DNA of 24,223 bases, from the IMG/VR virus record IMGVR_UViG_3300042184_000002, positions 1 to 24,223 of that record; one strand, given 5' to 3'. The stretch is from a virus. The translations under genes and the position numbers were made by a program. Below the pieces are notes generated by a model, which was given only the letters and a program-made list of their open reading frames with translations, was not told where the DNA came from and did not search any database. This document shows, piece by piece, positions 4,282-13,585 of the stretch. Each line of letters opens with the position of its first letter. Position 1 is the stretch's first letter.

Positions 4282-6936
4282 TTATGCAAAAGCAAATTCA
4301 GATTTGAGGATTTCACGGATGTCCAGAGTTCCTTTCTCAGGAAGCTCAGGCATCTTGTCGAGTTGGGTTTCGTGCAACTGCTCCATGAACTGGTCACGGA
4401 AGTCAGCGAGTACATCGTTGTTCTCATACGTCTCAACCATCGTTTCCCGTACCGCTCGGAACATCGCACCGGCTTTCGCAGGGATGGTCCCGAAGGAGTC
4501 ATGGATGAGGCAGAAGAAGTCGATCCCGTAGTTCTCGGCAGCGTGGACCACCGTCTTGCGGAGGTGGCTACCGTCTTGGGAGTGAACGAAGTTTGGCGAG
4601 ATGCCCGACTCTTGTTTGCGGGCGTCGATCTTGTCGCTATCTCGCACAGTCACGGTGGACTGCAAGCGGATGTCCCCGAGGAACATCAGGTCGATACGGC
4701 GGGTCTCTGGGACCATGTATTCCTGCCACACCGGGAAGCCATCAGGCGTACACCAGTAGACAGGCATTGCAGGCTTGAGCAGGTCCTTCGTCTTCTTGCA
4801 CTTGACCTCAGAGGACAGCAGCTTCGCAGCCTTCTGGAGCCAGTTCATTGCCTCTACAGCAGCGACCACAACGACACTCACTGAGTCCCAGATGAGGCCA
4901 GCCATGAAGCGGCTCGCTTGACCCGGATCGGTGAACATATGGCCTTCGTCGTTATCAATCGCTTTCTTCACGATGTCTTCACGAACCTGATCGGCGAACC
5001 CGTAGGCTTTCGATCCGTAGGCGAGGGTCATCACGGAGCGCTTGGTTACCTTTCGGGACATTCCGTAGGCAAGCCAAGCCATAGCGAGGGTTTTTGTTCC
5101 AAGGACCACTCGTTCCTTAATTTCTCCCGTCTTTTCATCGACGAGAGTCTCGGTGCTGTTATCAGTTCCGGTGGCAGCAAGTACGAGTAGGGCAGCTTCA
5201 ACTTCGTCTGAGACCAGCTTGTAGATGTCTTGAACGGTTTCGCTGGGAAGCAGATTGACCGCCCGACCGCCTCGTTCATCGCGAAGCATTGCAGAGAAGT
5301 GTTGGATGCCAGAACACGATCCATCGAATGCAATCGGAATAGCTGATACATGGTTGGGTCCGTCACGCTTAACTCCTTCCCACTCGAAGCAGAATGCTAA
5401 GAAACAGAACGGCGAGTCCAGGCTCATCCATTCGATATTGGTTAGTGGATCTCGGGCAGTCGCAAGGATCATCCCTTCGTTGTCCAGAACCCACTGCTTG
5501 CGTTCCTCAAAGGTGACCTTATCGACCCCAGCAGTGTTGGCACCGTGAATCATCAGCCACTGAATCCCTTCCTCACCGACTGGCTCACCCTTAGCTGCCT
5601 GCAAGACACCTTTGGTCATGTCATTGGACTGAGGGTTGAACGCAGGGATCGCATAGACCCGGCCACGCCAGTCGAGGTTGTAAGGGAAGTAGATGGCCTC
5701 GAAGTCCTTGAACTTGTTGGCCTGCTCCAGCGAGAACTCGTAGGAGAGACGACGAGAGACCCTTGCGGCATCCTTGCGGTAGATCGCAGAGGCTGCCTTC
5801 TTCCACACCTTGAGAGCTTCCTCGTTGGTGTCGATGTCGAATGGCTTGGTCGGCAGTTCCTCACGTTCCGTTGTCGGGAACTCTTTGATCGGGACGTTCT
5901 TCCATTCCATCACCGCGTTGGCCACATCGAGGACTCGACGGTTGATCGACCATGCGGTGTTCTGAGCGAGGTTCACAGCCTTGTAGACCTCAGGCATGTG
6001 GACATCCTTGTAACGCTTCAAGGCCCGCTTAGAGGGGACCCGGATGAACGTCACAGGCTTGCGACCTTTGGCCCAGTAGCCACCACCTTGAGTCGAGACC
6101 CACGGCTTCGGCTGTACGACCATCGGCTGGTAGCGCGGGAAGATCCCCGAGAGGATGTAGGCCCGAGACTGAAGCTTCTCAGCCCATTCCTGCTTGAGGT
6201 AGACGTACTCGCCGTCCAGCTTCTTGTTGCCCTTGTGTTCCCGGACGACCTCAATCAACTGGGTCGATTCGATCAGCAGCTCCAACATGCGAATGCCCAT
6301 GTGGTACTTCACATCGGCTTCCATGGCATCCCATTGCTGCCACTCGTGGGTCAGCTTGCCATCGTCGATCATTTGCTGCTCGATCCGCGCCATGTACTCC
6401 ACCTTGTAGGTGTTGCCATTGCGTTGAGCGAGGGCCTTCTTGAGGTGGCGCTGGTAGTAGGCTTGCTCGGCTTGCCGAACTCGGCCATAACGAGCTTCCT
6501 CCTCCAGTGCCCCACCGATGCTCACAGCCATCTCAGTGATGGTCGGAGCGCCGTTACGTTGAGCGATGCGGTTGATCGTCCAGCGAATGGTCACCGAGGC
6601 AATAACGTCTGGGTTCATTTGCTGGAAGGCAGCGAGGGCTACGTGCTTGCGGCGAACCTTCGTGGTCTGGTGTTCGATCCACTCAGCGATAGCCGTTGAG
6701 AGGAGTGGTACGAGGGTTCCGAGGAGAGGCTTGGCGACTGAGTTCATGGAGAACTCGCCACGGTCCTGAGACTTCTCAAGGGCCTTGAGGAACTTCTCCT
6801 CGCCCAGTGTGTACGCCTCATGTTCCAAGTGCAGTTGCTCAGCGGCGAGTGCTTCACCGTAGATGGCTGCAAGGGAGTCGAAGGCGTGAGTTGCGGTGAT
6901 GTCGCTGAAGTCGTGACGCGCAGATGCTTCAAACAT
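4282..6936 (-). CDS. 1: Single-subunit RNA polymerase gp1
   Basis: 884 residues, T7/T3-type DNA-directed RNA polymerase that transcribes class II and III genes. Key segments are intact: FDGSCSGIQHFSAMLRDE (catalytic Asp of motif A), VTKRSVMTLAYGSKAYGF (O-helix Lys and Tyr), HDSFGT (second catalytic Asp) and the C-terminal FAFA. In the specificity loop, T7 TRLNLMFLGQFRLQ aligns with RRIDLMFLGDIRLQ, so the residue matching T7 Asn748 is Asp749, the T3 residue known to switch promoter choice. This fits the ACCCTCACT promoters in the window. The start ATG at 6936 follows immediately after a long hairpin, and no clear Shine-Dalgarno is free of that stem. A phage promoter lies upstream, so the gene can be read by its own product. 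Confidence 0.98.
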   Translation of the reverse strand: MFEASARHDFSDITATHAFDSLAAIYGEALAAEQLHLEHEAYTLGEEKFLKALEKSQDRGEFSMNSVAKPLLGTLVPLLSTAIAEWIEHQTTKVRRKHVALAAFQQMNPDVIASVTIRWTINRIAQRNGAPTITEMAVSIGGALEEEARYGRVRQAEQAYYQRHLKKALAQRNGNTYKVEYMARIEQQMIDDGKLTHEWQQWDAMEADVKYHMGIRMLELLIESTQLIEVVREHKGNKKLDGEYVYLKQEWAEKLQSRAYILSGIFPRYQPMVVQPKPWVSTQGGGYWAKGRKPVTFIRVPSKRALKRYKDVHMPEVYKAVNLAQNTAWSINRRVLDVANAVMEWKNVPIKEFPTTEREELPTKPFDIDTNEEALKVWKKAASAIYRKDAARVSRRLSYEFSLEQANKFKDFEAIYFPYNLDWRGRVYAIPAFNPQSNDMTKGVLQAAKGEPVGEEGIQWLMIHGANTAGVDKVTFEERKQWVLDNEGMILATARDPLTNIEWMSLDSPFCFLAFCFEWEGVKRDGPNHVSAIPIAFDGSCSGIQHFSAMLRDERGGRAVNLLPSETVQDIYKLVSDEVEAALLVLAATGTDNSTETLVDEKTGEIKERVVLGTKTLAMAWLAYGMSRKVTKRSVMTLAYGSKAYGFADQVREDIVKKAIDNDEGHMFTDPGQASRFMAGLIWDSVSVVVVAAVEAMNWLQKAAKLLSSEVKCKKTKDLLKPAMPVYWCTPDGFPVWQEYMVPETRRIDLMFLGDIRLQSTVTVRDSDKIDARKQESGISPNFVHSQDGSHLRKTVVHAAENYGIDFFCLIHDSFGTIPAKAGAMFRAVRETMVETYENNDVLADFRDQFMEQLHETQLDKMPELPEKGTLDIREILKSEFAFA
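5074..5096 (-). promoter_or_regulatory. Cryptic promoter-like sequence inside gene 1
   Basis: The minus strand reads CAAAAACCCTCGCTATGGCT, one core mismatch (A to G at about -6) from the phage promoter TAAAAACCCTCACTATGGC. It lies in codons for TKTLAMAW of the polymerase. The mismatch is at a position conserved in T7 and T3, so activity may be weak or absent. Confidence 0.35.
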
Positions 6937-7020: not shown

Positions 7021-7078
7021 TAAGTAGGAACCCCTCTGAGGTGTGTAGCCACAGTGAGGGGTTTTAAATTCCTACTTA
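7021..7078. repeat. Inverted repeat enclosing a phage promoter
   Basis: TAAGTAGGAA (7021-7030) is perfectly repeated in inverse at 7069-7078, with an inner pair CCCCTC (7031-7036) / GAGGGG (7056-7061). The phage promoter 7043-7066 lies inside, and the stop codon of the upstream gene is in the outer arm. TCTTTAAG also occurs twice as a direct repeat (7003-7010, 7017-7024). Confidence 0.75.
7043..7066 (-). promoter_or_regulatory. Phage RNA polymerase promoter upstream of gene 1
   Basis: The minus strand reads TAAAACCCCTCACTGTGGC then TACAC: core CCCTCACTGTGG, with one A replaced by C compared with the other class II copies. It drives toward gene 1, about 107 bases before its start codon, and is followed by an AT-rich stretch. 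Confidence 0.88.
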
Positions 7079-7474
7079 GCGGAGTGCTTCGATCCTGCCG
7101 TGAACGTCGGAGAGCTTGTAGACAAACTCTTTGATCTCGACGGTATCTCGCCATGCCTTGATGGCCGTTCGGATGGTCTCGTAGACCCTCATGTTGTAGT
7201 CGTAGCCAATGCCACTCCCCACGAGGCCGAACCAGCGAGGTTTGCACGCTTGGGCCATCTCAAAGGCGTCATTACCGGCAAACGGTGGATATGGTCGCTT
7301 GGTCAAGTGCGACGTTTGAGTCACCACCAGCAGACCATCAGTCACACGAAAGGCCAGGGTCTCAACGAAGCGGCCACAAGGCCCCTCGCCAAGCTTGAAC
7401 TCGACCTCCTTGACCTTGGCGAGTCCGTAGGTCTCAGGCTGGATGAACGAGGCGCGGAACTTGATGGATTGCAT
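7076..7474 (-). CDS. Hypothetical early protein, last before gene 1
   Basis: 132 residues, unrecognised. Beta-strand-like alternation in the first half (ETLAFRVTDGLLVVTQTSHL), a Gly-rich turn (GLVGSGIGYDYN near residue 86), and a helical C-terminus (IRTAIKAWRDTVEIKEFVYK). No membrane segment. The ATG at 7474 shares one base with the TGA of the preceding gene (TGATG), with GGGGAGG upstream, so it is coupled to the cassette containing the oxygenase. The stop lies in the inverted repeat holding the gene 1 promoter. Confidence 0.8.
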   Translation of the reverse strand: MQSIKFRASFIQPETYGLAKVKEVEFKLGEGPCGRFVETLAFRVTDGLLVVTQTSHLTKRPYPPFAGNDAFEMAQACKPRWFGLVGSGIGYDYNMRVYETIRTAIKAWRDTVEIKEFVYKLSDVHGRIEALR

Positions 7475-7695
7475 CAGAAGCCTCCCCGGTAGCAGCGAGT
7501 GAAGTCCCCGGTGTCGCTGTAGCGCAGGCCACGCCGTTGGCGCAGCATCCCCAAGCGAGCCTCAGACCATTCGGTATGCTCGACCATGGCCTCAGGGTTG
7601 GAGCGGTTGTTAGCGTGCAGCCGGATGGAGCGGTCAGCTCGGATCTTGGCGTCTGTCATGCCAGTGCGGGCCGGTTGGAAATTGCTATGGATCAC
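7474..7695 (-). CDS. Small Arg-rich hypothetical protein
   Basis: 73 residues from a GTG at 7695 that overlaps the TGA of the oxygenase gene (GTGA) and has GGAG 4 bases upstream. An internal ATG at 7659 (MTDAK...) lacks a ribosome site, so the GTG is preferred. The protein is strongly basic with many Arg and Asn residues (IRADRSIRLHANNRSN; RLGMLRQRRGLRYSD) and no hydrophobic segment. No family is recognised; nucleic-acid binding is possible from composition only. Confidence 0.65.
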   Translation of the reverse strand: MIHSNFQPARTGMTDAKIRADRSIRLHANNRSNPEAMVEHTEWSEARLGMLRQRRGLRYSDTGDFTRCYRGGF

Positions 7696-8396
7696 TTCAC
7701 TTCACTCCAATGAACAAGTAGGTGCCGCTCGCCAGAGGTGACGGGCAGTCCGTAATGCAGGGTCGTTTTGCCTTTGAAGAACATCGCCCAGCCCGGTAGG
7801 TTCTGAGGGACCTTCACGTCAGGGAAGAACGGGCCTTGTGCGACCATCGTTCCACCACCTTCGTGGTCATCGTTGAGCGCCACCACCAGCGTGACATCCG
7901 AGTCCCTGTCAGTGTGCCAATGGCCCCTGTCAGTCTCTGAGGGCTCGTACACGGCGCTTTGCACGCTGGTCAGTACGTCAGGCTCAAGATTGAACAGAAC
8001 CTTCGCCAGTGGCACCGCAGCGTCTGCCCAGAAGCTATGGAAGACCTCGTAGAACACTGGGTGTTGGTCTTGCAGGGTCACCTCAGGGATCTGGGCCTCA
8101 GTGGGCTCCTCAAGGTTGGGCTCATGCTCAAACTTGCTGACCTCGTGGATGATGTCCTTGCAGTACTCAGGGTGCAGATAGGCCACGCTGTAGACGCCCG
8201 GTGCATGGCACACCACGCAATCGTCGAGGAACTTTTGCCACTCAGAGTCCTCAGAGAAGTCCTCAGGGTTGATCCCACCGTTGTCCTCAGCGTACTTAGC
8301 CATCTCCTTGATGGTCTCAAGGTGCGCCTTAAGGAGTGGGTGGTACTTGTCCCATGAGGCAATGCCCGTTGTGGCTTTCGTGAAGACCCGGCTCAT
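7692..8396 (-). CDS. 2-oxoglutarate/Fe(II)-dependent oxygenase (prolyl-4-hydroxylase-like)
   Basis: 234 residues with the double-stranded beta-helix signature of 2OG-Fe(II) oxygenases in the C-terminal half: metal-binding HTD (H161, D163) in GHWHTDRDSDVTLVVALN, then EGGGT, and the distal H214 followed ten residues later by R224 in LHYGLPVTSGERHLLVHW. The H-x(10)-R spacing is the classic prolyl hydroxylase/PKHD arrangement, the Arg binding the 2OG 5-carboxylate. The N-terminal 110 residues are helical and unrecognised. It overlaps both neighbours (ATGA at 8396, GTGA at 7692). Such enzymes hydroxylate protein side chains or nucleobases; the substrate here is unknown. Early position suggests a host takeover or defence-evasion role (inference). 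Confidence 0.85.
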   Translation of the reverse strand: MSRVFTKATTGIASWDKYHPLLKAHLETIKEMAKYAEDNGGINPEDFSEDSEWQKFLDDCVVCHAPGVYSVAYLHPEYCKDIIHEVSKFEHEPNLEEPTEAQIPEVTLQDQHPVFYEVFHSFWADAAVPLAKVLFNLEPDVLTSVQSAVYEPSETDRGHWHTDRDSDVTLVVALNDDHEGGGTMVAQGPFFPDVKVPQNLPGWAMFFKGKTTLHYGLPVTSGERHLLVHWSEVK

Positions 8397-8881
8397 GGCA
8401 GCAGCCCCATCGGAAGAACCTCACGAGCCACGGAGTAGAGCGCCCCGCCAGTGATACCGAACGCGGCCACTGTCAAGTACTCAACGATGGATTTAGTTAC
8501 TGATTTAGAAGGTTTATTTGGCTTCCACCACTTGCTTTCCCGTTCCAGTTCTGCCTCACGGCGACGAACGGTTACCAGTGGATGCTCCTTTCTGGTGTAT
8601 AGTTCGTTCACAAGCCCAGTGAATAGGCGTTCTGCCTCAACACTCCAGTTGAACAGGGCTTGCAGGATCAGGTGTCCGACCTCTTGCCCGTTGTTGGCGA
8701 GAAACTGGAAGGAGTAGCCGTTATTTCCTTCGAGGGATACCACGTTCACACGGAGCCAGCGCTGTCCATGCCTGTTTTCGACATAGTGAGCGTAACCATC
8801 ATTCATCGCCCCCTGCATTGCAGCGATGAGACGGAAGGCAAAGCCGGCTGACACAAAGTTAGTACGGTTGAAGCGTTGCAT
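8393..8881 (-). CDS. Hypothetical protein with C-terminal membrane segment
   Basis: 162 residues, unrecognised. The N-terminal half is mixed; a charged linker (TVRRREAELERESKWWKPNK) leads to one likely membrane helix near residues 133-157 (VEYLTVAAFGITGGALYSVA), suggesting a cytoplasmic domain tethered by its C-terminus. The ATG at 8881 has AAGG some 14 bases upstream, a weak site. The stop overlaps the start of the oxygenase gene (ATGA), so the two are coupled and may work together. Confidence 0.75.
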   Translation of the reverse strand: MQRFNRTNFVSAGFAFRLIAAMQGAMNDGYAHYVENRHGQRWLRVNVVSLEGNNGYSFQFLANNGQEVGHLILQALFNWSVEAERLFTGLVNELYTRKEHPLVTVRRREAELERESKWWKPNKPSKSVTKSIVEYLTVAAFGITGGALYSVAREVLPMGLLP

Positions 8882-8977
8882 AAATAAACCAGACCTTAGG
8901 ATGTTGTAGAGCAGTACATGGTAAGACCAGAGCTATCGCCCGGCTTACGGTTGATGGAGCGGCAAGTGCGCCCAGCG

Positions 8978-8998
8978 GAGAGCCTGATACAGGCCCTC
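8978..8998 (-). other. Strong hairpin in the 8882-9010 gap
   Basis: In minus-strand RNA, GAGGGCCUG pairs with CAGGCUCUC (9 pairs, one G-U) around a UAU loop. No U-run follows, so it is not a standard terminator; a processing or stability element between early genes is possible. The rest of the 129-base gap shows nothing else I can support. Confidence 0.5.
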
Positions 8999-9010
8999 GA
9001 CTTGTAGCAC

Positions 9011-9097
9011 TTATGGAACGAAGAACAGCGCGATCATGACCACGAAGCAGCCTATCAGGAGCCCGCCCAGCATCCCTGTGACGATTGCGTCTTTCAT
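9011..9097 (-). CDS. 28-residue single-span membrane peptide
   Basis: MKDAIVTGMLGGLLIGCFVV then MIALFFVP: one hydrophobic helix with small-residue (GxxGGxxxG) packing. The ATG at 9097 overlaps the TGA of the acidic protein (ATGA), indicating translational coupling. No ribosome site of its own is obvious. Function unknown; inner-membrane location expected. Too short to judge homology by eye. Confidence 0.6.
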   Translation of the reverse strand: MKDAIVTGMLGGLLIGCFVVMIALFFVP

Positions 9098-9417
9098 TGG
9101 TCGTCGTCCTCATCCTCGTCCAGCTCCTCCTCAAACTCGATGTCGGAGTAGTCCTCGTTCTCCAGTTGGGCCTCAAGCTCAGCTTGCAGCTCGGACTCGT
9201 AGTCACCTTGAGCGCACCGGAAGGCCACCGGATCGACACTTGAGAGGACAGAGCCCACGTTGTAGGTCATACCGCAGATTACGACCGGCTCGTAGATCTC
9301 ATCCAGCACGTCCTCATACTCGGACTCGGAGAGGTCAACTTCGCCATTGGTGACATCGTAGCCCTTGTACTTGGTCACGTTGTCGATGTTCCAGAATGAT
9401 GCCTTGGAGAGTGCCAT
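9094..9417 (-). CDS. Highly acidic early protein (possible DNA mimic)
   Basis: 107 residues from ATG 9417 (MALSKASFWN), two bases after the upstream TGA. An ATG at 9432 would add five residues but has no ribosome site. By my count there are about 32 Asp/Glu and 4 Lys/Arg, a net charge near -28; the last 37 residues are the most acidic and end in EELDEDEDDDQ. The first 70 residues look folded (NVTKYKGYDVTNGEVDL; VVICGMTYNVGSVLSSVDP). T7 Ocr (gp0.3) is a similarly small, similarly charged early DNA mimic, but I see no sequence similarity. A DNA-mimic or basic-partner-binding role is inference. Confidence 0.8.
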   Translation of the reverse strand: MALSKASFWNIDNVTKYKGYDVTNGEVDLSESEYEDVLDEIYEPVVICGMTYNVGSVLSSVDPVAFRCAQGDYESELQAELEAQLENEDYSDIEFEEELDEDEDDDQ

Positions 9418-9418
9418 A

Positions 9419-9712
9419 TCAGTTAGTCCCATGTGGATTGTAGTGAGCTTCAGAGCAGAGCTTGATCATGTCGCGGAGTTCACGCACTGAGGTAGTGCGG
9501 AAGATGATGCCTGTACGGTCCTCAACGACCCAGTAGGAGCCCTGCCAGTCGCCCCAGTGGCCTACGGTGTAGACCAGCTCGCGGTGGTACACCTTGACGA
9601 ACTCAGCGGGCACCTTGAGGCTCAGCGTGAACTTCGAGAGTTCGACAGCCCGTGCTACGTCGTTGATCACAGGCATGGCCAGGATTGCGGCGGTCAAGTC
9701 ATGGATACGCAT
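9419..9712 (-). CDS. Hypothetical early protein
   Basis: 97 residues, unrecognised. The N-terminal helix (MRIHDLTAAILAMPVINDVA) is followed by strand-like segments (FTLSLKVPAEFVKVYH, GSYWVVEDRTGIIFRTT) and a short C-terminal helix (VRELRDMIKLCSE). GAGGG lies 9 bases before the ATG at 9712. Soluble; it lies between two other small early genes with short gaps. Confidence 0.8.
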   Translation of the reverse strand: MRIHDLTAAILAMPVINDVARAVELSKFTLSLKVPAEFVKVYHRELVYTVGHWGDWQGSYWVVEDRTGIIFRTTSVRELRDMIKLCSEAHYNPHGTN

Positions 9713-9722
9713 GGTGCAGCCC

Positions 9723-10037
9723 TCAGATCAGGTTGATGGTGGTCCACGAGCCGTTCCAGCGCTCACCGTTGAGGAACCACTCATAGTTCTTCTGGTTCAC
9801 GGTGACACTCGGCAGGCCGTTGAGGCGCTCTTTGGTGGTGTTACTGGTCCAGCCACCATCGCAGATCTCAAAGGACTTGAGAGGGCCTACATCACGCCGT
9901 GCTATTGCGTTACCGTGCAGCTTGAGTACCAGAACCGCGCCGAGTGGGCTAAGCTCTACAGTGGTGTTGCCACCGAATGTCCCAGTGCGACCCGATGTGA
10001 AGGCGTTAACAGCTTGTTGCGTGACTTGACGTGCCAT
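9723..10037 (-). CDS. Hypothetical early protein, beta-rich
   Basis: 104 residues, unrecognised. It opens MARQVTQQAVNAFTSGRTGT, then Gly/Thr-rich strands (NTTVELSPLGAVLVLKLHGN) and an aromatic C-terminus (YEWFLNGERWNGSWTTINLI) suggesting a small beta-sandwich or barrel. The ribosome site AAGGAGCAACACC is nearly identical to that of the upstream gene. I have the impression this N-terminal pattern recurs in early regions of other T7-like phages, but I cannot verify it. Confidence 0.8.
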   Translation of the reverse strand: MARQVTQQAVNAFTSGRTGTFGGNTTVELSPLGAVLVLKLHGNAIARRDVGPLKSFEICDGGWTSNTTKERLNGLPSVTVNQKNYEWFLNGERWNGSWTTINLI

Positions 10038-10048
10038 GGTGTTGCTCC

Positions 10049-10300
10049 TTATGAGGACTTTTCGATGTTGAGACGGTCCAGAAGGTCCGCCTTAGTGCGA
10101 TGCCAGTGGGCCTGTAAGACCCGTGAGTGTGTCAGTGTGTCATCCACCTCTTGGCGTAGCTTCTCCCACATCGGAGAGCTTGCAGAGCCCTCGTAGCGGC
10201 TGAAGGTGGACTTTGCGGCTTGATGGGCGTTCTCAGCCAACTTGATGCGGTGGTCGAGGTCATCCAGTGCCGCCTTGAGGTCGTCTAAACGCTTACTCAT
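10049..10300 (-). CDS. First early gene: small coiled-coil protein
   Basis: 83 residues, unrecognised. Heptad-like leucines and charges over most of the length (RLDDLKAALDDLDHRIKLAE; LRQEVDDTL...LLDRLNIEK) predict two helices forming a coiled coil. AAGGAGCAACACACC precedes the ATG at 10300. It is the first gene after the genome left end, behind two sigma70-type promoters and two leader hairpins, in the place T7 uses for gene 0.3 (Ocr), though it is not Ocr-like in charge or sequence. Confidence 0.8.
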   Translation of the reverse strand: MSKRLDDLKAALDDLDHRIKLAENAHQAAKSTFSRYEGSASSPMWEKLRQEVDDTLTHSRVLQAHWHRTKADLLDRLNIEKSS

Positions 10301-10338
10301 GGTGTGTTGCTCCTTGCCGTGCTAAGAACCAAAGTCGC

Positions 10339-10382
10339 AGACTCTCACATCCTCGTGCTAATGCTTGAATACACGAGAGTCT
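10339..10382 (-). other. Leader hairpin 1 upstream of first early gene
   Basis: AGACTCTC (10339-10346) is inversely repeated at 10375-10382, enclosing a 28-base loop with further short pairing. No U-run follows, so processing or protection of the early mRNA leader is more likely than termination. T7 has an RNase III site at the equivalent place. Confidence 0.55.
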
Positions 10383-10404
10383 ACTGCTTTATTTCCTTTC
10401 ACTG

Positions 10405-10457
10405 CTACGCACCGGCCTTCAAGACTCTTCCCAGAGGAAGGCTGTTTCAGTGCGTAG
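10405..10457 (-). other. Leader hairpin 2 upstream of first early gene
   Basis: Nested arms: CTACGCAC (10405-10412) with GTGCGTAG (10450-10457), GCCTTC (10415-10420) with GAAGGC (10437-10442), and CTCT with AGAG around a TCCC loop. A stable multi-helix stem lying just after the boxA-like element; candidate RNase III site. Confidence 0.65.
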
Positions 10458-10470
10458 TGTTTCAACCGTG

Positions 10471-10482
10471 TTTTTAAAGAGC
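10471..10482 (-). promoter_or_regulatory. boxA-like antitermination element
   Basis: The minus strand reads GCTCTTTAAAAA, differing at one base from the bacterial rRNA boxA GCTCTTTAACAA. As I recall the T7 leader, it has GCTCTTTAACAA at the same place, after the early promoters and before the first RNase III hairpin. This suggests recruitment of host Nus factors (inference). Confidence 0.55.
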
Positions 10483-10582
10483 GAGTGGGTGCCCGGTAGG
10501 CCGTGTCTATCAGCCAATTCGTTGCCCTTGTAGCGGTTCAGCTTGTGACTCAGTGTTGCCGTGTTGCCTTGTTGATGGAGCT

Positions 10583-10611
10583 ATTTGACCATGTTGCGTT
10601 GTTGCTGTCAA
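10583..10611 (-). promoter_or_regulatory. Early sigma70-type promoter, proximal
   Basis: On the minus strand a perfect TTGACA (10611-10606) is followed after 17 bases by TCAAAT (10588-10583), with TGG just before the -10 element. Position and direction fit an A-type early promoter for host RNA polymerase. Confidence 0.65.
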
Positions 10612-10755
10612 TCGTTTTGTTTGCCCTTGTGTTGCATCCCATCTGCCTTGGTGACCCTTAATGACTCTTGGCAGCCGTAGCATCGCAAGTCAGGCCCTAC
10701 TAACATCTGGGCAACTCCGGTAGACCCTTGAGCCATTCCGTTGTTGATGTGGCCA

Positions 10756-10784
10756 ATCTTATAGACCACCTTAGAGGCTGTCAA
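10756..10784 (-). promoter_or_regulatory. Early sigma70-type promoter, distal
   Basis: On the minus strand a perfect TTGACA (10784-10779) is followed by TATAAGAT: either TATAAG after 15 bases or TAAGAT after 17. This resembles T7 A1 (TTGACT...TATAGGAT as I recall it). It directs transcription to the early genes. Confidence 0.65.
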
Positions 10785-10877
10785 CCACTAATTTACAATA
10801 ATCATCATCCTTGTATTCCCTCTATATAGGCACGATGGGACATAGCCTATAGGGCGGCCTGTAACAGCGTATAGGCA

Positions 10878-10967
10878 TCATTAGGGCCTACTCGATGGCA
10901 TCATTAAGGCGTCATTAGGTAGCGCCCTCTCAGGGTCTCATGGTGTCCTTATAGGGTCCTCATTGAT
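10878..10967. repeat. Short-repeat array on the early side of the terminal repeat (SRL-like)
   Basis: Plus-strand copies TCATTAGGG (10878), TCATTAAGG (10901), TCATTAGGT (10912) and TCATTGAT (10960). On the minus strand they read CCTAATGA or CCTTAATGA, comparable in style and position to the CCTAAAG heptamers next to the T7 terminal repeat. Confidence 0.6.
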
Positions 10968-10979
10968 CCCCTTTAGGGA

Positions 10980-10994
10980 TAACAGATAGGGACA
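10980..10994 (-). promoter_or_regulatory. Concatemer-junction pause motif and predicted terminal-repeat edge
   Basis: The minus strand reads TGTCCCTATCTGTTA. As I recall T7, the terminal repeat ends in TGTCCCT and continues ATCTGTTA, where ATCTGTT is the class II pause signal used in packaging. The match would place the repeat edge between 10988 and 10987. Confidence 0.65.
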
Positions 10995-11203
10995 GATGGA
11001 CGCATAGGCTAACACTATGGCCCCTTGAGGTTCCCATTGAGATAATCAATTGGTCACCATCCTTGATAACCCATATGATGAACCCAACGAAGCCCATTAG
11101 GATCATCACCATGTAGCCATCATCACGAGTCACCTCACCGTATCCCTCAGACGATCATTGAGATGCCCATGGGGAGTAGAGGCCCTTTGGATGCCCTGAG
11201 AGA
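10988..11203. repeat. Predicted direct terminal repeat (single copy in this record)
   Basis: The early-side edge is set by the T7-identical junction motif. The other edge is uncertain: T7 and T3 ends begin TCTCA, and the minus strand has TCTCTCAGGG starting at 11203 and TCTCAGTACA starting at 11240. The first gives 216 bases, the figure I remember for gh-1 (unverified); the second gives 253. The interval contains no credible gene. Confidence 0.5.
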
Positions 11204-11270
11204 GGGGCCACGGGGGTAACCGCTGGTGTCTGTACTGAGAGGTGCCCTAAGAGATTTTTCTATCAGATTC

Positions 11271-11393
11271 TCATTAAGGCCCCTTGAGGATCATTATCAG
11301 CCAGTCATTAAGGTTCGTCCAGTACCACCTATCGGTTGCCTCAGAGAAGACCTAACGATAACCACGAGGGGACCATTAGGAGCTTCATTGAGT
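11271..11393. repeat. Short-repeat array on the late side of the terminal repeat (SRR-like)
   Basis: Plus-strand copies TCATTAAGG (11271, 11305), CCATTAGGA (11373) and TTCATTGAGT (11384), the same unit as at 10878-10967. Scattered relatives (CCATTGAG 11034, CCCATTAGG 11093, TCATTGAGA 11155) lie inside the predicted terminal repeat. No gene is seen from here to the 19.5-like stop at 11463. Confidence 0.55.
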
Positions 11394-11462
11394 CTTGCTT
11401 GTACTGCTCAAGGAGGTAGAGTGAAACGATACCGAACTTGAGCGTGTTGGCAACGACTGGGC

Positions 11463-11633
11463 CTACTCGCCACAGCCTCCTACAGCTACGCACAGCAAGG
11501 TCGAGACCCAGCCCATGGCGTCAGTACCTGAGGTGAACCCTAAGGTCACCAGCAGGATGCCAACGAGCTTGTAGGTGGAACGTGAGAGAGCCAGTCGCTT
11601 CAGTACCAGCAGGACGGTTGCCTTGGTGGTCAT
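11463..11633 (-). CDS. 19.5: gp19.5-like small membrane protein
   Basis: 56 residues from ATG 11633, preceded by AAGGAG. The arrangement matches T7 gp19.5 as I recall it: a basic start (LKRLALSRSTYK), a hydrophobic helix ending LGFTSGTD, and a second hydrophobic stretch WVSTLLCVAVGG. It is the last gene before the genome right end, behind the promoter at 11777-11799, again as in T7. Upstream in-frame starts lack a ribosome site. The function of gp19.5 is unclear; a membrane role is expected from the two helices. Confidence 0.75.
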   Translation of the reverse strand: MTTKATVLLVLKRLALSRSTYKLVGILLVTLGFTSGTDAMGWVSTLLCVAVGGCGE

Positions 11634-11776
11634 AGCGGTGGTCTCCTTGAGAGATGATAGTTGAAGGTGATGGCTATTGCCATTACTCACCATCGGTGAT
11701 GTGGTCCTTAGACTGGTCCTCATCCTGAGGAATCCTAAGGTTAGCTCTATGAGGGAATCATATAGGACCCCCCTAA

Positions 11777-11799
11777 GGTAGCCATAGTGAGGGTTTTTA
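11777..11799 (-). promoter_or_regulatory. Phage RNA polymerase promoter (phi-OR position)
   Basis: The minus strand reads TAAAAACCCTCACTATGGC then TACC, identical to the gh-1 consensus as I recall it. It lies after the large terminase gene and before the 19.5-like gene, as T7 phi-OR does, and points to the right genome end; in T7 this promoter is a secondary origin and primes end processing. Confidence 0.93.
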
Positions 11800-11815
11800 A
11801 ATTAGTGCTGATAAT

Positions 11816-11837
11816 GACCAGACATCCCTGTCCAGTC
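11816..11837 (-). other. Stem-loop after large terminase stop
   Basis: RNA of the minus strand pairs GACUGGACA with UGUCUGGUC (9 pairs, two G-U) around GGGA, 6 bases after the stop codon. It has no U-run, so it is a weak terminator at best and may protect the 3' end of the late mRNA. Confidence 0.4.
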
Positions 11838-11842
11838 ACACT

Positions 11843-13585
11843 TTACCAGCCCATGTAGTTGCTCATCTGGCCATCATCCTCGTAGTAGATGTCCACCGAG
11901 TCACTGATCGAGACCTTGCGGATGTCCTCAAAGCCCATCAGTTGGTTCTCCATTTGAGCCTCAAGGAACTCCTGCATCATCTCCGACTCGCCAACCTTGC
12001 TGTCCTTCTCCATGGAGTCCACGAAGAATTGCACACCAATGGCCAGGGCATCCAAGCGGTCATCATGTGCCAGTGAGCCACGTTCACGAGTGATCCGGGT
12101 CAGTTGGTACAAGGCGCTGTACTTGGTATCAGTGGTCCCATCAGCGTTGAGGGCAGTGCGGTAGTCCTTGTCGATCAGAGCTTCCTGAATGACCAGCTTG
12201 TGGCTGCCCAGTACAGGCTCCAGAACGTCACAGATACGCATCTCCTTCTGACCCTTGGACTTAACCTCAGTGACAGCGCAGGGGAACGTAGCGGCGATCA
12301 CAGGGGCGATCAGCTTCACATACATGCCGTCACCGAAGTTACCCTCGATCACGACCTCATTGACCTTGTAGATCTTGGCGATGTTGGCCAGAGCTTGAAG
12401 GGTTGTGTCCTCGTAGCCACCACGGAACCCACCGATGTCCATCACGAAGATGTAGCCGTTGAGTTGGTACAGCACTGCATAGCCAGTCTCATCCTTGCCA
12501 CGCCCAGAGGGGTCGATCACGAGGATCTTTTGCTGGTACATAGCGGTGGACTGTCCGACTGATTCATAGCGGTGGAAGCGGTCACCTTTAAGGCCCACCA
12601 GAGGAACGCCCTTGACCTCGTTAGGGGTGTTTGGCATCCACGTCAGGGTGGTTGGACCCTTCATCAGGTCGAACGTCCCCACGATGAAGTCACGCAGCTT
12701 CAGAGGGTACTTCTCAGCGTCACTCAGGTTCGGGTTGAGCATGAACTGTAGAGCGAAGCCACCTTTGCCGTAGGACAACTCACGTTCCCGAAGGTCAGCG
12801 TCATCGAATCGGATAGGGTCAGTTGGTGCCCAGAACAGCCTTGGGTCACCTTCAAGTTCCTTCTGGAGCATAGGGGCCAGTCGAGGACCATACGACTCCC
12901 AGTCCTTCTGATCGAGCGGGTAGCGGGCAGGCCAGATGGTGGTCACGTAGCCACGACCTTCAAGTTCCCTGTAGAGGGTCATCTCGGTCTGAGGGGTGCC
13001 CAGATAGATGATCGTTCCACCGGGCTTCAGGATCGCGTCGAACTCCTTAACGAGTTCTCCGAGGTGATCACGAGCGGCCTGAGTGCCAGAGTTGTTTGGA
13101 ACCTCCACGTCGTCCGCAATGAGGATGTCAGCACGGGAACCAGTCAACTGACCAGTGATACCCACCGACTTAACGGAGGGCGAGTGGTCGGGCTTAGCGG
13201 GTCCCACGTCGAACGCCAATGCGGAGTCCCGTTGCCCAGCCCGAGGTTTCAATTCGTGCAGGAAAGGGAGCAGCTCAATGATGCGCTTGATGAAGATGGA
13301 GTTGGCATCTGCCCGTTCCTTGGAAGCGGACACAATGAGGAACTTGAGGTCCGGGTTGCCCCACAGCTTCCACACCACGAAGGCGCAGGTGATGAAGGAC
13401 TTGCCGATACCTCGGAATGCTTGAAGGATGAAGCGACGATCAGTGCCGTTGGCAATAGCCATCGACATATCAATCTGGCACTTGGTCGGTTTGGGAAGGT
13501 TGAGCGCACGCCATAAAACGAATAGGAACATGATGAAGCTTTTCTTCATCTTTGCGAGGTCATCGTCCTTGTGTTGTTGGGTCAT
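11843..13585 (-). CDS. 19: Terminase large subunit gp19 (DNA packaging ATPase/nuclease)
   Basis: 580 residues (T7 586). Packages concatemeric DNA into proheads and cuts it. The ATPase domain has a Walker A-like FRGIGKS at 57-63, Walker B ILIADDVE at 154-161 and a coupling motif YLGTPQ at 194-199. The RNase H-like nuclease domain has D358 ([10 protein letters not shown]), E414 with D419 (IEGNFGD) and D508/D509/D512 (DDRLDAL). The C-terminus ends MGW like T7. ATG 13585 has AAGGAGG, and the gene overlaps the end of Rz by 26 bases. It works with gp18 and the portal, which is outside the window. Confidence 0.97.

Follow-up and report, generated by a model that had tools for sequence, protein, structure and literature searches.

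An open reading frame among the early genes of a T7-like phage is predicted to encode a 2OG-Fe(II) oxygenase, which raises the question of what such an enzyme would do there. The stretch of DNA analysed, here called the window, comes from a phage akin to Ghunavirus and is a viral fragment of 24 kb (24,223 nucleotides). In the aligned parts, its DNA is 77–79% identical to the Pseudomonas phages Henninger, Kompost-2, Lepni01 and others. A close relative is the 41 kb IMG/VR contig 3300034349_000001, in which the oxygenase is 96% and the RNA polymerase 99% identical. The T7-like source given in the preliminary description is supported. The coordinates given there for the oxygenase gene were also exact, and the strand is minus: the frame runs from an ATG at 8396 to a TGA ending at 7692 and encodes 234 aa, and several stops interrupt the plus-strand frame there. 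All features are listed in Table 1. At 10300-13585 of the window, the early region comes directly after the terminase gene, so that the contig spans the genome ends, either by circular permutation or by an end repeat joined in assembly.

Table 1. Positions in the window of the oxygenase gene, its putative catalytic residues, the neighbouring genes and the predicted promoters.
Feature	Position	Strand	Basis or remark
Host-type promoter TTGACA-N17-TAAGAT	10756..10784	-	precedes the early genes
Upstream early gene, 162 aa, phrog_8679	8393..8881	-	stop overlaps the oxygenase start (ATGA)
2OG-Fe(II) oxygenase ORF (predicted)	7692..8396, stop codon included	-	ORF, PHROG/Pfam profiles, conservation, model, fold matches
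Y150, counterpart of the 2OG-binding Y814 of L230	7947..7949	-	invariant; HxD histidine 11 residues away, as in L230
H161-T162-D163, HxD iron-ligand motif	7908..7916	-	H161/D163 invariant in 46 relatives; aligned with L230 H825/D827
H214 (third iron ligand) to R224 (2OG carboxylate)	7725..7757	-	invariant; aligned with L230 H877/R887
Downstream early gene, 73 aa, phrog_19243	7474..7695	-	GTGA shared by its GTG start and the oxygenase stop
Early gene with T3 gene 1.05 domain	7076..7474	-	Pfam PF25755, E=8.7e-20
First phage-type promoter core along transcription, ACCCCTCACTGTGGC	7048..7062	-	between the oxygenase and the RNA polymerase gene
Single-subunit T7-like RNA polymerase gene, after the early genes	4282..6936	-	ORF and homology

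The protein matches the PHROG 61 profile "2OG-Fe(II) oxygenase" over its full length (E=3.3e-53, residues 1-232). Among phages in GenBank, E<0.01 is reached by 224 records, of which 188 cover at least 80% of the protein. The full-length matches come nearly all from Pseudomonas autographiviruses (T7-like), and their names vary between "hypothetical protein", "hydroxylase" and "2OG-Fe(II) oxygenase", many being the latter two. The gene and its family are thus already known, contrary to the earlier suggestion of an undescribed find. Members of PHROG 61 are found in Ghunavirus, Pijolavirus, Pifdecavirus and other Pseudomonas autographiviruses, for example in Kallioja, in FMS (as "hydroxylase") and in phiPsa17, where the homologue VO98_035 is listed as "hypothetical" with Pfam13640 (PMC4517105). 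In Studiervirinae, their position ahead of the RNA polymerase gene is the same, with 68–96% identity in the closest group. The protein in the window shows no essential difference from these annotated members and is one more of them. The activity, on the other hand, can still be called undescribed, as our literature search found no paper on the function, and no biochemistry, of PHROG 61-type phage oxygenases.

In Pfam, two families match below their curated cut-offs: OGFOD2-like in the middle part of the protein (E=3.6e-5) and 2OG-FeII_Oxy_3 in the C-terminal, catalytic half (E=1.8e-4). Each is detected in 12–13 of 20 relatives. The 2OG-Fe(II) oxygenases of cyanophages and pelagiphages belong to the same superfamily. 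However, they are only ~30% identical over the catalytic half alone, and occur in other phages with other gene neighbours.

The active site was described earlier as H161, D163, H214 and R224, and these residues are indeed present. All four are invariant, first in 20 and then in 46 relatives, the latter in an alignment that reaches down to ~30% identity and in which Y150 is invariant as well. The iron triad HxD...H is therefore found in the entire set, and the basic residue for the C5 carboxylate of 2OG is R224. In the mimivirus lysyl hydroxylase L230, the iron ligands are H825, D827 and H877, Y814 and R887 are positioned for 2OG, and activity is abolished without the Fe- and 2OG-binding residues (PMC5802723). 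All five of these residues have invariant counterparts in the 46 phage relatives, and the spacing is identical, 11 positions from Y to H and 10 from H to R. This corresponds to H-x(9)-R and not to the H-x(10)-R of the preliminary description. Other positions invariant among the 46 sequences include N94, E97, E105, Q146, W160 and GGGT at 180-183. From the match to L230, we infer that the Fe and 2OG ligands cluster in the model. The motif alone is weak evidence: when the protein is shuffled at constant composition, 30% of the random sequences contain a loose form of it (matching was greedy and ran on as far as K234). Motif spacing was accordingly dropped as evidence.

Structurally, the AlphaFold2 model (pLDDT 94.7, pTM 0.91) is predicted to have a double-stranded beta-helix fold, and Foldseek matches it to oxygenases of this fold at probability 1.00. 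The structure prediction called for earlier thus agrees with the profile match and the invariant active site, and together they bear out the assignment as a 2OG-Fe(II) oxygenase. The best 15 Foldseek matches are all L230 or human LH3 (PLOD3), with E-values from 7.6e-11 to 1e-8, and L230 comes at the top (TM 0.66/0.79). PolD, PHD2, HalA and a chlorella-virus prolyl hydroxylase follow at ~1e-6, several orders weaker. Among viral models, the first match is a Megavirus procollagen-lysine dioxygenase. A search of PDB sequences with a profile of the 46 sequences gives a consistent picture: it finds the lysyl hydroxylase domain of LH3 (E=2.2e-16, residues 53-229) and L230 (3.2e-10) and no other match under 0.1, prolyl hydroxylases included, and with a smaller profile the best prolyl hydroxylase reaches just E=0.45. 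As lysyl hydroxylases are nearest both by profile and by fold, the earlier label "prolyl-4-hydroxylase-like" should become "lysyl-hydroxylase-like".

The phage protein nevertheless differs from these enzymes in several respects. The lysyl hydroxylase domain of L230 (PDB 6ax6, 6ax7, 9nev) is only ~21% identical, and identity to any solved enzyme is about 20% only. The leucine of the tail-to-tail dimer of lysyl hydroxylases, L873 in L230, is T211 in the phage protein and varied among its relatives. The fused glycosyltransferase domains are absent, and the 234-aa protein has no room for them. In comparison with LH3, it stands alone, has its own N-terminal helical extension and comes without collagen: within the minus-strand ORFs of the window, to which the search was confined, runs of G-x-y reach at most 3 units. 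By the dimer leucine and the glycosyltransferase domains, the phage oxygenase is not a collagen lysyl hydroxylase.

The oxygenase gene has a host-type promoter upstream and the first phage-type promoter downstream, and is therefore probably read early by the host polymerase. Seven phage-type promoter sites were found, against 1.27 expected, with the consensus taken from PMC4517105, and a host-type site of similar form, TTGACA-N16-TAAGA, is reported for phiPsa17 in the same paper. Promoters (10784-10756 and 7062-7048), synteny and the analogy to T7 all support the early, host-polymerase-read position proposed in the preliminary description. The overlaps with both neighbours suggest translational coupling. 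The phrog_8679 gene encodes a conserved N-terminal domain of ~110 residues and a fast-changing C-terminus, and no fold in the PDB significantly matches the model of its product (pLDDT 80). Further upstream, at 9723-10037 on the minus strand, is a small early protein with a Kyanoviridae Gp96 domain (PF23790, E=1.5e-14), common to cyanophages and Pseudomonas T7-like phages. An association of the oxygenase with defence was considered and rejected: PADLOC matched it only to a generic CRISPR-associated "2OG" profile (5.7e-8) and found nothing for five neighbours.

In T7, the early gene 0.7, shortly before gene 1, encodes a protein kinase that could modify host proteins. The oxygenase gene is likewise early and placed before the polymerase gene, but its chemistry and fold differ from those of the kinase. 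Phage Illi-1 has both an annotated kinase and an oxygenase, so the latter is not simply a replacement of the kinase.

Comparison of related phages shows how the gene has been kept and lost. The identities of oxygenase and RNA polymerase are correlated (Spearman 0.77 over 42 genomes, the pairs being non-independent), which argues that the oxygenase is mostly inherited with the phage. Against eight relatives dN/dS is 0.15–0.25, i.e., the gene is under purifying selection. However, it is absent in several relatives. In gh-1 it is missing together with the other genes before the polymerase, as noted in PMC4517105, and in phiPstEGF nearly all of it is missing within a larger block. A relative of the latter, phiPst2111, has 164-nt direct repeats that flank the gene and overlap its start, which suggests that the loss in phiPstEGF occurred by recombination or deletion. 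In phiPst2111 (L011 2735-4236), these 164-nt copies hold the 5' end of the oxygenase gene and are repeated around it, whereas phiPstEGF (L012) lacks the gene. A cleaner case is L084, a 41 kb contig whose RNA polymerase is 76% identical: the same upstream and downstream genes (5496-6289) are joined directly at ATGA, so that exactly the oxygenase ORF is absent. L084 keeps ATGAGCC, like the oxygenase start, and a deletion fits better than a gene that was never present, although this is no proof. The gene is absent from L085 and L091, too. Given the losses and the purifying selection where it is present, the oxygenase gene is, on sequence grounds, an accessory gene that is selected but dispensable for the phage lineage.

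Outside free phages, 3 of 400 Pseudomonas genomes match the oxygenase. In G267 (a 6.48 Mb contig) and in P. rubra (L080), it is found in a T7-like prophage next to an integrase gene. A chromosomal, non-phage homologue was not seen, and an origin as a bacterial chromosomal gene was rejected, the matches examined adjoining T7-like RNA polymerase genes. In two Pseudomonas sequences, L080 and L102, an integrase gene (1136-2641 and 8847-10313, respectively) adjoins the early region of the T7-like prophage. The prophage in L102 lies next to a gene that may be earP, the EF-P modification gene. An open frame in L077 (160-849) combines a start resembling an integrase N-terminus with the last 33 residues of the oxygenase, and is probably a prophage remnant.

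We suggest that the ORF encodes an Fe(II)/2OG oxygenase of the lysyl-hydroxylase-like branch (PLOD LH domain/OGFOD2-like), which would be made early by the host RNA polymerase, ahead of the takeover by the phage polymerase. Iron would be held by H161, D163 and H214 and 2OG by R224 and Y150, and the activation of O2 would release succinate and CO2. An aliphatic side chain would thereby be hydroxylated, most likely in a host protein, and this may favour infection in some hosts or conditions. The parts of this proposal are not equally strong. From the invariant residues and the predicted fold, it is highly probable that the protein is catalytically active as a 2OG oxygenase. That the reaction is hydroxylation of a protein or peptide is reasonably likely, by analogy to the lysyl hydroxylases. 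A host protein as the substrate is a weaker inference, tenable at somewhat less than even chances; it draws on the early timing and on the absence of VO98_035 from the 11 virion proteins of phiPsa17 found by mass spectrometry (PMC4517105). The host targets named in the preliminary description, a ribosomal, translation or RNA polymerase component, would be conceivable substrates within this reading. Hydroxylation of lysine specifically would be rather unlikely. Taken as a whole, the reading of an early accessory, lysyl-hydroxylase-like hydroxylase of a host-protein side chain is, in our judgement, evenly balanced between right and wrong.

In the 2OG superfamily the substrate changes freely, and sequence alone cannot separate a protein from a small-molecule substrate. 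The enzyme might instead hydroxylate free lysine or a different amino acid, or a metabolite of host signalling or defence. Streptomyces PolD and the free-lysine enzyme HalA do stand beside PHD2 in the Foldseek results, after the lysyl hydroxylases, and towards the N-terminus three conserved residues of polar or acidic nature, N94, E97 and E105, could hold a small charged substrate. However, the polypeptide-acting lysyl hydroxylases are clearly closer by sequence and fold, and no biosynthetic genes were noticed beside the oxygenase, so we regard a small molecule as fairly unlikely. A phage protein as the target, be it the polymerase, a virion protein or another early protein such as the phrog_8679 product, appears more improbable still. 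It is true that the phrog_8679 gene overlaps the oxygenase gene and co-occurs with it in nearly all Studiervirinae loci examined. However, it is kept without the oxygenase in L084, L085, L091 and phiPstEGF, other groups keep the oxygenase without it, and gh-1 lacks both. As each gene occurs without the other, an obligate pair was rejected despite the overlap and the co-occurrence. The scarcity of G-x-y units among the window proteins also speaks against a collagen-like phage substrate.

Oxidation of a nucleobase, which the preliminary description had offered as an option, or a role in DNA or RNA repair is suggested by what has been proposed for other phage 2OG-Fe(II) proteins, in cyanophages and roseophages (PMC3037559, PMC11288001), and by a match to phrog_2297 (8e-8), which is labelled DNA endonuclease. 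No AlkB or TET/JBP family was matched in searches of Pfam, NCBIfam and PDB sequences, which makes this option less likely; the closest relatives hydroxylate proteins, and no hypermodification genes were noticed nearby. We consider it very unlikely. Finally, the losses in several relatives, and the C-terminal end kept behind an unrelated start in L077, could indicate a decaying or non-catalytic relic. The full active site, the high-confidence fold, the low dN/dS and the coverage in the 188 records argue against this, and a relic seems the least probable of these alternatives.

The novelty is limited: beyond one more member of a phage family already known by sequence, it lies in the kinship to lysyl hydroxylases and in the clean, cassette-like loss. 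It can be speculated, though we think it improbable, that this phage-only family acts within the first minutes of infection on a conserved Pseudomonas protein and hydroxylates one of its side chains, lysine or another, as a post-translational takeover or counter-defence function carried on a removable single-gene cassette. If true, this would be a post-translational chemistry not described for phages in the literature we found. Proteins for host takeover and counter-defence are found among phage early genes, and phages without exactly this ORF (L084) or without a larger block (gh-1, phiPstEGF) offer natural comparisons. With an early oxygenase near the protein-lysine hydroxylases, the oxidative modification of host proteins would become a phage strategy open to testing.
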